Origin: Acidobacteriota bacterium
GTDB lineage: Bacteria > Aquificota > Aquificia > Aquificales > Aquificaceae
Direction of reading: 5' to 3'
NCBI GenBank assembly: GCA_003696155.1
Contig: RFFP01000015.1
Span: forward strand, 1-64,000
DNA: 64,000 nt
The position numbers and the translations under genes were made by a program. The notes below the pieces were generated by a model. That model was not told the origin of the DNA and ran no database searches. It saw nothing but the letters and a program-made list of their open reading frames with translations. Positions within the stretch are counted from its first letter, which is position 1; every line of letters begins with the position of its first letter. Shown here in pieces: positions 59,748 through 64,000 of this stretch.

Positions 59748-60596
59748 CTATCGTCTACTCAGAAGCAACACGGAAGGGATTCCCCAGAGCAGGGAAGAAA
59801 AGAGTAAAAAGCTGTGAAAGACAAAGCCAAGCTTTAGCCACTCCTTTAGACTCTCTCCAAGAAGCTTAAGTGGTAGGCCGAAGGCAAACTCGTAGGTCCC
59901 CAATCCCATAAAACTGTGGATGGGCAATACAGAACTCAGCTCACCCCCAGAAAAGGCAAGGAAAGTTCTGTAAAGGTCCTCGTGCCAAAGGTTTAAAAGA
60001 ATCAGAAAGCTAAGAAACTTAGAAATTTGAGAAAGAAGGGACAAAAGGAGAAGGTTAAGGCTCAAACCTAGGGTTAGCTCCCTCTTTAGAAAGCTTTTCA
60101 GCTCTCCTAGCTTTCCCGCCTTTGGAAGGAATTTGTGTGCACCGTGCATTAAGGGTAGTGTAAGAAAGAGGGCAAGGGTGGGCATAAAAAAAGAGAGCTC
60201 GACCAGAGACAGACTAAAAAGCAGTAGAAAAAGAAGGGAAAGAAGGTCATAAAGCCTACCTAAAAGGAAATACCACATGGAAAGCTTGAAGTTTACACCA
60301 AGCCTTTTTGCGTAATAAAACCAGCTGAGTTCACCGGTCCTTGCAGGAAATATATTGTTTAGCATAATGTGGGCTGAGTTTATCAAAAACACCTGCACAA
60401 AGCCTAGCCCTTTCAGAAGGAGCTTCCAGCGGTATGCCCTAACGACTTGGCTTAAGCTGTAAAGGAGGAAGGCAAGAAGGAGACTGCTAGGAGCTATACC
60501 TCTAAAGAGGATTATCAACTCTCTGAAGGGAACAAGGTAAAGGATTAAGCCCAAAAGTAAAAGGGTAAAAGAGAGGGAGAGAAGGTATGTTTTCAA
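59748..60596 (-). CDS. UPF0104 / lysylphosphatidylglycerol-synthase-type membrane protein
   Basis: A 282-aa membrane protein with seven or eight segments; SQVVRAYRWKLLLKGLG near residue 50 and NNIFPARTGELSWFYYAKRLG near 83 match the flippase-like domain shared with MprF (YbhN family). It may move or modify lipids. The start is TTG, sharing TTGA with the stop of the preceding gene. Confidence 0.85.
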   Translation of the reverse strand: MKTYLLSLSFTLLLLGLILYLVPFRELIILFRGIAPSSLLLAFLLYSLSQVVRAYRWKLLLKGLGFVQVFLINSAHIMLNNIFPARTGELSWFYYAKRLGVNFKLSMWYFLLGRLYDLLSLLFLLLFSLSLVELSFFMPTLALFLTLPLMHGAHKFLPKAGKLGELKSFLKRELTLGLSLNLLLLSLLSQISKFLSFLILLNLWHEDLYRTFLAFSGGELSSVLPIHSFMGLGTYEFAFGLPLKLLGESLKEWLKLGFVFHSFLLFSSLLWGIPSVLLLSRR

Positions 60597-61195
60597 TCTT
60601 CTGGTGGCACGTCGTGAATAACTACGGGCTTGCCAGCCATACGAGAAAGTATGACGGCAGCTACCTCTACACCAGAGCCAGCGCAGGATGTAAAGTGGGA
60701 AGAAAGACCGGCAAGGGTACCAACAACAAAGAGGTTTTTCTCAACTTGGTAGTCTTCATGCCTTATCATAACCCTTCCAGGCTTGGGAGACTTGGGGTTA
60801 TCTATAACTTGAACCTCTATCCCCTTTATGTCAAACCTGTGAAAACCACTTGCAAGCACCACGTACTCCGCCTCAAAGAGTCTACCCTGCACCGTTTCCA
60901 GCTCAAAAAGCTCTCCTCTCCTTTCTACCTTTAGGACCTCCTCTTCTACAAAGTCTACACCACCCCAGTCTTCAATCTGCCTTCTTATATTCTGCAGGAG
61001 CTCCACACCCGTCATGGGTTCAATACCTGGCACGTTTTTCAAATAGGCTCTGTGGAGGTCTGACCTGCCTGTGTCAAAAAGGATATACCTTCTACCTTCC
61101 GCCCATTCCCAGCCCCTACCCTTTGAAGAGGCTAGGGTCAAAGCACAGGAAAGACCACTAGCACCACCACCAACTATAGCAACGTCGTACCTCAT
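60593..61195 (-). CDS. Short thioredoxin-reductase-like flavoprotein lacking the NAD(P) domain
   Basis: A 200-aa FAD protein: the FAD Rossmann motif VAIVGGGASGLSCAL lies at the N terminus, VLASGFHRFD in the middle and the C-terminal FAD site LFVVGTLAGLSSHFTSCAGSGVEVAA. It resembles thioredoxin reductase but has no second Rossmann domain and no CxxC active site. It is about 200 aa against about 310. It may use another electron donor. It is next to a degenerate E3-like protein. Confidence 0.8.
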   Translation of the reverse strand: MRYDVAIVGGGASGLSCALTLASSKGRGWEWAEGRRYILFDTGRSDLHRAYLKNVPGIEPMTGVELLQNIRRQIEDWGGVDFVEEEVLKVERRGELFELETVQGRLFEAEYVVLASGFHRFDIKGIEVQVIDNPKSPKPGRVMIRHEDYQVEKNLFVVGTLAGLSSHFTSCAGSGVEVAAVILSRMAGKPVVIHDVPPED

Positions 61196-61204
61196 GGTTA
61201 TATG

Positions 61205-61210
61205 ATTATA
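61205..61210 (-). promoter_or_regulatory. -10 element of the TrxR-like gene built on the upstream stop codon
   Basis: Minus-strand TATAAT contains the TAA stop of the E3-like gene and ends nine bases before the ATG at 61195. Confidence 0.5.
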
Positions 61211-62432
61211 ACCTTAAGAATGGCAGTTCTGATAGGGTTGGGTGGGGTAGGGGAGCCCTGCTCATAAACTCAAGGGTTAGCTCTCCGTGGAGGCTTAGGA
61301 CCAGGCCAGATAGGACCTCTTGGGCGTCCCTGCAGAAAACCTCACCACCCAAGAAAAAACCCTTCTTGTCAAAGTATAAAAAGAGCATACCCTCTTCCGT
61401 ATGGTACATGCTACCTACCGCAAAGGGTCTTAGTGGCAGGCTCCTCTCGCTATGTTCTATTCCCTTCTCCTCAAGTTCTATCTTTGTAAAGCCTACCTTT
61501 GCATAGGAAAGGGGCTGTGTATATAGCACGTAAGGCACTTTATGTGGGCTTAAGTAAAAACCCTTACCCTGGGTTATCCTTCTGGCTACGGAAAGGGCCT
61601 GAAGTCTTGCCGCTTGGGCCGTCTCCGAAAGTCCGTTTACATCACCCACTGCATAGTGGTCTTTTACGGAGGTCTCATAGTTCTTGTCCACAAGTATATG
61701 ACCCTTCTCGTCAAGGGAAAGCTCCACATTTATGCATTGGCTGTTAGGCTTCCTCCTGTAAAGAAAGTAGGCATCACCGCCTTTGAAGTCCCTAAGGTCT
61801 AGAAGGCTAATACCCAAACCCTTTAAGACCTTCAATAGCCTCTCTCTTATGGATGGGTTTACAAAGCCCAGGACTTTAAAATCAAAGCAGAGCTCCACAG
61901 GTGTACCTAGAAGGGCAAAAAGGGTGGCAAACTCAAGGGCTATGGGGTCATCACCCACAAGGATGAGCTTCTGGGGTAGCTCCTGAAGCTGAAGAAGGTC
62001 ATCGCCGTTAGGCTTCTGAGGGTAAGACTTACCTGTGTTTATGATAATGTACTTCCCGCTTATCCTTTTCCCTTCCACCTGCACCACATTGGGCTCCACG
62101 AGCTCCCCATAGCCGTATATAAAGTCCACACCTTTTAGCAGTCTTTCTATATCGTCCCTAAGTCTCTTTGTGAGTTTATCTTTTTTCTCCTTCAGCGCTC
62201 TTAGGTTGAGCTTTGGCTTGCACTCTATCAGGGGAGAGTTATTCAGGTCAAAGAGCTTTCTTACCTCAAAAAGGTAAAGCTTGGTAGGTATACAGCCCTC
62301 GTGAAGACAAACACCACCTAGATGCCCGCTTTCCCTTTCCACTATGGCAACTTTAAGGCCTGCCCTCCTTAAGAGCTCTACCCCCGTATAGGCAAGTCCA
62401 CCACCCAGCACCACCACATGGTAGTCAAACAT
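61206..62432 (-). CDS. Divergent dihydrolipoamide-dehydrogenase-like protein (E3-like)
   Basis: A 408-aa flavoprotein with the redox disulfide GGVCLHEGCIPTK near residue 40 and the C-terminal His-Glu dyad PHPTLSE, as in E3. It is about 60 residues shorter than usual. The FAD loop reads GGGLAYTG and the NAD loop has decayed to VGDDPIALEF in place of GxGxxG. It follows the E2 gene with an 8-bp overlap, so it was probably the complex's E3; NAD use is in doubt. Confidence 0.82.
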   Translation of the reverse strand: MFDYHVVVLGGGLAYTGVELLRRAGLKVAIVERESGHLGGVCLHEGCIPTKLYLFEVRKLFDLNNSPLIECKPKLNLRALKEKKDKLTKRLRDDIERLLKGVDFIYGYGELVEPNVVQVEGKRISGKYIIINTGKSYPQKPNGDDLLQLQELPQKLILVGDDPIALEFATLFALLGTPVELCFDFKVLGFVNPSIRERLLKVLKGLGISLLDLRDFKGGDAYFLYRRKPNSQCINVELSLDEKGHILVDKNYETSVKDHYAVGDVNGLSETAQAARLQALSVARRITQGKGFYLSPHKVPYVLYTQPLSYAKVGFTKIELEEKGIEHSERSLPLRPFAVGSMYHTEEGMLFLYFDKKGFFLGGEVFCRDAQEVLSGLVLSLHGELTLEFMSRAPLPHPTLSELPFLRL

Positions 62433-63657
62433 GGGTAGACCTCTTTAGAAACTTTATATATTCCCTGTCAAGTACCTTCTCTTTAAGGTGCTTCACAAAT
62501 AGGGCTCCATGGAGCCCGTTCACAACCCTATGGTCAAAGGTGAAGGTTATATGGGTTTTTCCGTCTTCTTCTTGCATACCGACTGCTATGATGCACACAT
62601 GTCCATAAGGAAGGATTGCATCAAAGGACCTTATGCCAAACATGCCAAGGTTTGAGATGGTAAGGGTTCCCCCCTGCATATCATCAAGGCTTAACCTTCC
62701 CTCTTCCGCCTTCTTCCTTAGACTTCTCACCTCCTCCCTTATCTCCTTCAGGCTTTTTTTGTTTACCCCCTTTATAACCGGGTTGTAGAGCTCCTCACCC
62801 ACTGCCATGGCTATGCCCACGTTGGAGTCTGGAAAGACAAGGTAATGGTCCTCTCTGTATACTGCCCTTAACCTTTCAAAGTGTTGCATGGCATCCCCCA
62901 CCACCTTTATAAGCCAGTGGGTAAGGGTAAAGTCCTTGTCCCAAGGTACAAGGGAGAGGTCAAAGACCTCGTATATGTGGTAGTGGGGCAGGGGAAAGCT
63001 TTTAGACAGGTTTGCTATCAGAGTCTTCTGTACTTGGCTTATGGGTAGCCTTTTGGGAATGCCCCTCTTTTCCACAAAGGCAAGGAGCATATCCTCATCC
63101 ACCTTCTGAGAGGGAAACTCCTCAAGGATTTCCCTAAGGTCAATCTCGTACTCCTTCAGAAGCTCTAAAGCCTTTGGTGTGAACTGTCTTTCAAGTAGAA
63201 GCTCCTCTACGTCCCTTGCATGGGTTGGTGAGGGTAGCCTCTCTTCCCTCTGGAGCTCTTCCAGGTTTAGACCGTAGTCCTTTGCAAGTATCCTTGCGTA
63301 GGGTGAGGCAAAACCCGGTGGGAGCCCTACCCTTTCCACCTTGACCTCAGGCTTGGGCAGGGGTTGAGGTTTTAACTCCTCCTTAGGCTTAGGTGGTGGA
63401 GGCTTTACCTCCCTTACCTCTCCTAGTTCTAAAAGGGCTATGGGTTTTCCTACTGGCACCTCTTCCCCTTCCTTTACTAGTATCCTTTTGAGAACACCGC
63501 GCTTAAAACTCTGGAGTTCCATAACCGCCTTCTCTGCCTCTATCTCGGCGATGACCTCCCCCTTCTCAACCATGTCCCCCTCCTTCTTGAGCCAGCGAAC
63601 AATCTTGCCCCTCTCCATGGTGTCGGAAAACTGGGGCATGCTTATCTCATAGTCCAT
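62425..63657 (-). CDS. 2-oxoacid dehydrogenase E2 (dihydrolipoyl acyltransferase)
   Basis: A 410-aa E2 with a lipoyl domain (residues 1-80, lipoyl Lys43 in IEAEKAVMEL), a Pro/Lys linker, a peripheral-subunit-binding domain (about 114-150, FASPYARILAKDYGLNLEEL), a less ordinary helical region and the catalytic domain. The active site reads DHRVVNG, with Asn where the HxxxDG motif has Asp. The ORF track start at 63756 adds 33 residues read through the E1 gene; MDYEISMPQFSDTME at 63657 is the natural start. It overlaps E1-beta by 11 bp. Confidence 0.9.
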   Translation of the reverse strand: MDYEISMPQFSDTMERGKIVRWLKKEGDMVEKGEVIAEIEAEKAVMELQSFKRGVLKRILVKEGEEVPVGKPIALLELGEVREVKPPPPKPKEELKPQPLPKPEVKVERVGLPPGFASPYARILAKDYGLNLEELQREERLPSPTHARDVEELLLERQFTPKALELLKEYEIDLREILEEFPSQKVDEDMLLAFVEKRGIPKRLPISQVQKTLIANLSKSFPLPHYHIYEVFDLSLVPWDKDFTLTHWLIKVVGDAMQHFERLRAVYREDHYLVFPDSNVGIAMAVGEELYNPVIKGVNKKSLKEIREEVRSLRKKAEEGRLSLDDMQGGTLTISNLGMFGIRSFDAILPYGHVCIIAVGMQEEDGKTHITFTFDHRVVNGLHGALFVKHLKEKVLDREYIKFLKRSTHV

Positions 63658-64000
63658 GGCTCTTGCTCCAGCTGAGTATCTGGGAGTATATCCTCTCGGG
63701 TGTGGGTATGGCCAGGAGTTCCAGCCTTCTGTTGTAAGGTATGGGAACCTCCCCACCCGCTATCCTCAGAGGTGGTGCATCCAAAAAGTAAAAGAGCTCC
63801 TCACAAACCCTTGCAGAAACCTCAGCACCAAGCCCAAAGCTCTTTGGTGCCTCGTAAACAACCACAAGCCTTTTGGTCTTTTTCACTGAGCTGTATATGG
63901 TCTCAAAGTCTATAGGTCTGAGGGAAACCAAATCTATGACCTCGCAATAAAGCCCCTCCTCTTCAAGCCATTGGCAAGCCTTTAGAACATCGTGAACCAT
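63647..64000 (-). CDS. 2-oxoacid dehydrogenase E1 beta subunit, C-terminal part (cut by window edge)
   Basis: The last 117 residues of a transketolase-like E1-beta: LEEEGLYCEVIDLVSLRPIDFETIYSSVKKTKRLVVVYEAPKSFGLGAEVSA and then LRIAGGEVPIPYNRRLE. The upstream end lies outside the window, so it is partial; the ATG at the edge is internal. Together with E2 and the E3-like gene it forms a pyruvate or branched-chain 2-oxoacid dehydrogenase cluster. Confidence 0.9.
   Translation of the reverse strand: MVHDVLKACQWLEEEGLYCEVIDLVSLRPIDFETIYSSVKKTKRLVVVYEAPKSFGLGAEVSARVCEELFYFLDAPPLRIAGGEVPIPYNRRLELLAIPTPERIYSQILSWSKSHGL

Follow-up and report, generated by a model that had tools for sequence, protein, structure and literature searches.

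To our knowledge, every 2-oxoacid dehydrogenase complex of the textbook kind has an NAD-linked E3 as its last component. In sulfide:quinone oxidoreductase and flavocytochrome c sulfide dehydrogenase, a second dinucleotide domain no longer binds NAD and electrons pass to quinone or cytochrome c; these enzymes act on another substrate and have no E2 partner, and we liken them to the E3-like protein reported here by description only. The ferredoxin-dependent flavin thioredoxin reductase (FFTR) reduces disulfides but works without NADPH (PMC12796991). By analogy we regard it as the closest precedent in principle, since this member of the pyridine-nucleotide disulfide reductases trades electrons with a different carrier. 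The precedent is one of principle only, as FFTR belongs to the low-molecular-weight thioredoxin reductase family and reduces thioredoxin, whereas the E3-like protein has the architecture of an E3. Yeast Irc15p is reported to be an E3 paralogue without redox cysteines; half of the E3 reaction is thereby lost, the opposite half to that missing here (PMC6296175). Within the Aquificae, lipoyl-linked redox chemistry outside 2-oxoacid complexes is represented by LbpA and Hdr-like sulfur oxidation; in contrast to the present locus, that system relies on the GcvH-like LbpA, has no E1-E2 operon, and is proposed to work with an E3 of the ordinary, NAD-linked kind (PMC6067878). A search of the open-licence literature returned nothing specific on an NAD-less E3 or on an Aquificaceae pyruvate dehydrogenase (PDH).

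The window, meaning the whole stretch of 64,000 nucleotides that was analyzed, comes from a hot-spring autotroph and ends within a minus-strand cluster of four overlapping genes that spans contig positions 61206-65579 in the order E1alpha-E1beta-E2-E3-like. The overlaps are 14 nt (E1alpha/E1beta), 11 nt (E1beta/E2) and 8 nt (E2/E3-like). The features discussed below are as follows.

61206..62432, minus strand: E3-like putative flavoprotein, 408 aa, with a degenerate NAD domain; its start overlaps the E2 stop
62292..62309, minus strand: predicted C42-L-H-E-G-C47 redox disulfide in the E3-like protein; both Cys are invariant
61947..61955, minus strand: G160-D161-D162 in place of GGG in the NAD-binding GxGxxG of the E3-like protein, invariant in 13 sequences
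61227..61244, minus strand: predicted active-site H397-P-T-x-x-E402 of the E3-like protein, kept and invariant
62425..63657, minus strand: E2, 410 aa, comprising a single lipoyl domain, an E3-binding domain that is divergent, an extra helical stretch and an acyltransferase domain
62518..62532, minus strand: E2 motif HRVVNG, His376 to Asn380 (Asp-to-Asn), where the sequence reads FDHRVVNG
63647..64000, minus strand: C-terminal third of E1beta; the whole gene is contig 63647-64621, 324 aa
contig 64608-65579, beyond the window end, minus strand: E1alpha, 323 aa, the gene directly upstream of E1beta
60593..61195, minus strand: TrxR-like protein, 200 aa, with FAD-domain matches only, starting ten bases after the E3-like gene

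E1beta matches the NCBIfam model for PDH E1 component subunit beta (PRK09212, 344 bits against a cut-off of 321), and E1alpha scores 375.3 bits against TIGR03182, slightly under the cut-off of 393.9. The top PDB match of E1alpha is human PDH E1alpha at 244 bits, compared with 150 bits for branched-chain E1alpha, and the thiamine-enzyme (TPP) motif of E1 is intact. Judged by sequence, both subunits are of the pyruvate dehydrogenase type, and pyruvate would be the substrate of the complex.

The E3-like protein has E3 architecture in its profile matches, including the dimerisation domain, and its predicted structure adopts the lipoamide dehydrogenase fold (pLDDT 83; TM 0.86-0.90 to solved E3s). 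The disulfide and His-Glu loops are weak in this model (pLDDT <50), as one would expect when a monomer is modeled for an active site that is dimeric. Its score against the lipoamide_DH profile is 183 bits versus a cut-off of 408.8, and on this score and its altered NAD domain we classify it as a homologue of E3 but, strictly speaking, no E3 itself. The protein shares with the Thermus thermophilus E3 (2EQ6) the fold, the redox disulfide, the flavin-side Lys, the His-Glu pair and a position after E2 in the operon. At 29% identity, it differs from 2EQ6 in its GDD loop, its shortened NAD domain, the absence of the vGR glycine, an FAD loop shorter by one residue and a missing C-terminal helix, the chain stopping shortly after HPTxxE. 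Glu32, C42, C47, K51, E167, Asp264, H397 and E402 are invariant across 13 sequences, where Lys51 and Glu167 are residues that we take to flank the flavin in the E3 fold. The FAD glycine loop is altered to GGGL-AY, one residue short, which leaves FAD binding no more than probable; Glu32 and the FAD-domain Asp264 are both invariant.

In the NAD half, the loop reads VGDDPIALE versus VGGGAVGVE in canonical E3 (GGGAVG to GDDPIA), the acidic residue closing the second NAD-domain strand is absent, about 30 residues have been deleted before the vGR site, and the glycine of 'vGRkPN' is gone. The canonical E3s of Aquificaceae and Hydrogenothermaceae that were aligned all carry GGG or GAG and keep vGR. 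The sequence-only reading had described an E3-like protein lacking the NAD-binding GxGxxG, and we found the GDD loop in 13 of 13 sequences together with the further losses just listed. Very probably the E3-like protein no longer binds NAD and retains the disulfide, flavin and His-Glu chemistry.

Of 136 Aquificota genomes searched at a threshold of E 1e-40, 13 encode an orthologue of the E3-like protein, and every one of these belongs to the Aquificaceae; the 12 further carriers show 55-70% identity and fall in three genera. A scan of named genomes added one locus in an Aquificaceae MAG that is apparently G048 itself. The gene adjoins E2 in 11 of the 13 carriers, and E2 and E1alpha are present in 12 of 13 carriers versus 1 of 51 Aquificaceae non-carriers, the sole exception (G049) having an E2 that is built differently. 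In G057, where some 290 kb separate the E3-like gene from E1-E2, the genome has kept both. Within genus g1 and genus g4, in a small sample, the presence and absence of the E3-like gene and of E1/E2 covary, indicating that the co-occurrence is not one clade repeatedly counted.

The dN/dS of the E3-like gene is about 0.07-0.11 overall. This comprises 0.113 for G036/G037, the only pair with unsaturated silent sites; two more distant pairs for which the estimate is finite, and G046/G036, give 0.07-0.11. The remnant of the NAD domain gives 0.11-0.16. The invariance of GDD in 13 sequences together with these ratios excludes chance or decay for the E3-like protein, which by this measure is under purifying selection and is not a relic.

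We interpret the locus as a PDH of a type specific to the Aquificales in which, in some Aquificaceae, the complex's own flavoprotein replaces or supplements the NAD-linked E3 and passes electrons to a non-NAD acceptor, a proposal to which we give an even chance. E1 would decarboxylate pyruvate and acetylate the lipoyl domain of E2, and E2 would transfer the acetyl group to CoA, leaving a dihydrolipoyl group. The dihydrolipoyl group would then reduce C42-C47 of the E3-like protein with the help of His397 and Glu402, and electrons would move from the disulfide to FAD. Because the NAD pocket appears to be gone (GDD loop, vGR glycine, about 30 residues), FAD would need another acceptor, candidates being quinones, small redox proteins, a second disulfide or some further partner. 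An earlier suggestion that the complex may use another acceptor is thus the best-supported reading, given the loss of the NAD site with the redox residues kept. If true, electrons would leave this 2-oxoacid dehydrogenase by a route other than the usual one, and the finding would bear on why some autotrophs with a reductive TCA cycle retain PDH beside pyruvate:ferredoxin oxidoreductase.

With a midpoint potential of about -0.29 V, dihydrolipoamide would pass electrons readily to quinones, thioredoxin-like disulfides and cytochromes, but only uphill to ferredoxin. We found no acceptor gene linked to the E3-like gene, whose downstream neighbors vary between carrier genomes. We consider it very improbable that reduced ferredoxin is linked to the E3-like protein in place of NAD, and nothing in the operon or genome evidence here points to ferredoxin. 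Were such a link real, the lipoyl groups would be kept strongly reduced, and the complex could in principle run reductively, as a pyruvate synthase that is oxygen-robust and complements the oxygen-sensitive ferredoxin oxidoreductase. Decarboxylation by E1 is usually held to be irreversible.

The main rival to a non-NAD terminal oxidant is that a canonical E3 reoxidises E2 to yield NADH and that the E3-like protein has a structural or regulatory role or serves as a thiol relay, which we regard as rather unlikely. All 13 carriers also encode a canonical E3 elsewhere, and that of the source genome is intact (464 aa, GGGAVG, HPSLSE). In at least 18 Hydrogenothermaceae genomes (L069-L087), the same E1alpha-E1beta-E2 operon occurs without an adjacent E3, with 61-72% identity in E1 and 42-48% in E2, and every loop-covering E3 of the eight Hydrogenothermaceae genomes examined has an ordinary NAD loop. 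Since the operon has no adjacent E3, the Hydrogenothermaceae complex must use an E3 encoded elsewhere, and an ordinary E3 could therefore also serve the source complex. However, C42, C47, K51, E167, H397 and E402 are all invariant; a role in structure alone would not call for this, although a relay would still allow it. In addition, canonical E3 occurs in PDH-less Aquificaceae too and must serve another process there, presumably glycine cleavage.

An alternative that we consider improbable is that the E3-like protein has an unusual mode of NAD(P) binding and that the complex is an ordinary NAD-linked PDH. The overall fold is retained and a PF00070 match of 23.7 bits persists over the first NAD beta-alpha unit, but the losses are several and independent (the GDDPxx loop, the strand-2 acidic residue, the vGR glycine and the deleted residues), and the two Asp of the loop would meet the NAD pyrophosphate. 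It is quite improbable, in turn, that the main work of the E3-like protein lies outside PDH, on another lipoyl protein or disulfide substrate, with the operon link secondary. Such a role would fit G057, where the genes are unlinked, and G040, the one carrier that has the E3-like gene with no E1/E2 found and no E2 remnant upstream; however, G040 is 94% complete in about 80 contigs and its E1/E2 may simply be missing from the assembly, and the 12 of 13 versus 1 of 51 co-occurrence argues against it. That all three parts are decaying in a dying complex is hardly credible, as the motif losses alone speak for it, whereas the low dN/dS, E1 subunits that are 79-90% identical among carriers of the E3-like gene and an E2 Asn that is natural in an active E2p (see below) all speak against it.

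The Aquificaceae group uses the reductive TCA cycle (PMC10052474), and Aquifex has been described as using lipoate for glycine metabolism and not for oxidative 2-oxoacid metabolism (PMC3917532). POR_N (PF01855) matches were found in 64 of 64 Aquificaceae genomes, compared with E2 in 13 and a full-length E1alpha in 13. This agrees with the reductive TCA cycle and with the premise of the sequence-only reading that Aquificaceae generally use ferredoxin oxidoreductases for 2-oxoacids, and PDH is accessory in the family. Replacement of pyruvate:ferredoxin oxidoreductase by PDH is ruled out by the presence of POR_N in every genome.

E2 matches the Biotin_lipoyl (1.1e-20) and 2-oxoacid_dh (7.5e-41) profiles. 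Lipoyl Lys43, Ser335, His376 and Asn380 are invariant in 12 Aquificaceae sequences, the motif in G057 being HVVLNG. The Asn in place of the Asp of HxxxDG was thus read correctly at the outset as Asn380 in FDHRVVNG, but its description as a sign of degeneracy does not survive comparison. HRxxNG occurs in 18 of 18 Hydrogenothermaceae E2s read, and the Azotobacter vinelandii E2p (1EAA and five more entries) reads sydHRVING; the fragment of this E2p that served solely as a probe matches the PDB record over 88 residues save the first. Three more A. vinelandii E2p entries, including 1DPB, are titled for the part that Ser558, His610 and Asn614 play in the mechanism. The A. vinelandii PDH E2p has HxxxNG with a natural Asn and keeps the Ser and His, as in the Aquificales E2, from which it differs in that the Aquificales catalytic domain is shorter and the E3-binding domain divergent. 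We conclude that Asn is the natural residue of a studied E2p enzyme, and a degenerate E2 is ruled out. Ordinary homologues with the same residues were therefore found for E2 and not for the E3-like protein. Because the Hydrogenothermaceae E2s share the Asn without an adjacent E3-like gene and with ordinary E3s, the Asn is, by its distribution, older than the E3-like protein and independent of it.

The E3_binding profile aligns to E2 over positions 2-22 of 36 only and scores 21-23 bits where the cut-off is 23.7. Within residues of about 108-200, every Aquificales E2 read has other sequence in place of GxGxxGR, the second half of the E3-binding domain, and a conserved extra helical stretch ahead of the catalytic domain. 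Co-adaptation of this region to the E3-like protein was rejected, since the same divergence occurs in Hydrogenothermaceae without the E3-like gene. A second E3-binding-like helical domain at about 157-200 is plausible by eye and was set aside with no Pfam support, and the predicted E2 structure (pLDDT 66) is too poor to judge it.

Other arrangements of E2 were also observed. A second E1alpha-E1beta-E2 cluster is present in G042 (L063) and G044 (L064); in G042 no E3-like gene follows its E2, and in G044 the contig ends within E2. The E2 of G049 (genus g7; L062:4404-5936), known from a single incomplete MAG, carries a Thioredoxin_4/DsbA-like domain (PF13462, 8e-18, motif CSIC) between its lipoyl and acyltransferase domains and reads HRLIQG instead of HxxxDG, which would make it a lipoyl arm fused to a thiol-redox domain.

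The cluster had also been said to continue into a TrxR-like protein without an NAD(P) domain. This protein is present as described, with neither CxxC nor an NADPH domain, and is not a thioredoxin reductase by those features. The gene occurs in 54 of 64 Aquificaceae, mostly in genomes without E1/E2, and is located elsewhere in G039, G040, G044, G048, G028, G029 and G057. On this distribution and shifting position we rejected it as a part of the system, and it is a PDH-independent core gene of the Aquificaceae and not a degenerate part of the cluster; here it is probably a neighbor outside the complex. One of the three claimed oddities stands, namely a conserved, selected, operon-encoded E3 homologue without its NAD half. 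The top PDB match of the TrxR-like protein is 2CVJ, a Thermus 'thioredoxin reductase related protein' (E 1.9e-06), which is distantly related and likewise small, with only the FAD domain of a thioredoxin reductase. Where the TrxR-like gene is syntenic in other genomes, the gap is about 250-275 nt, compared with ten here.
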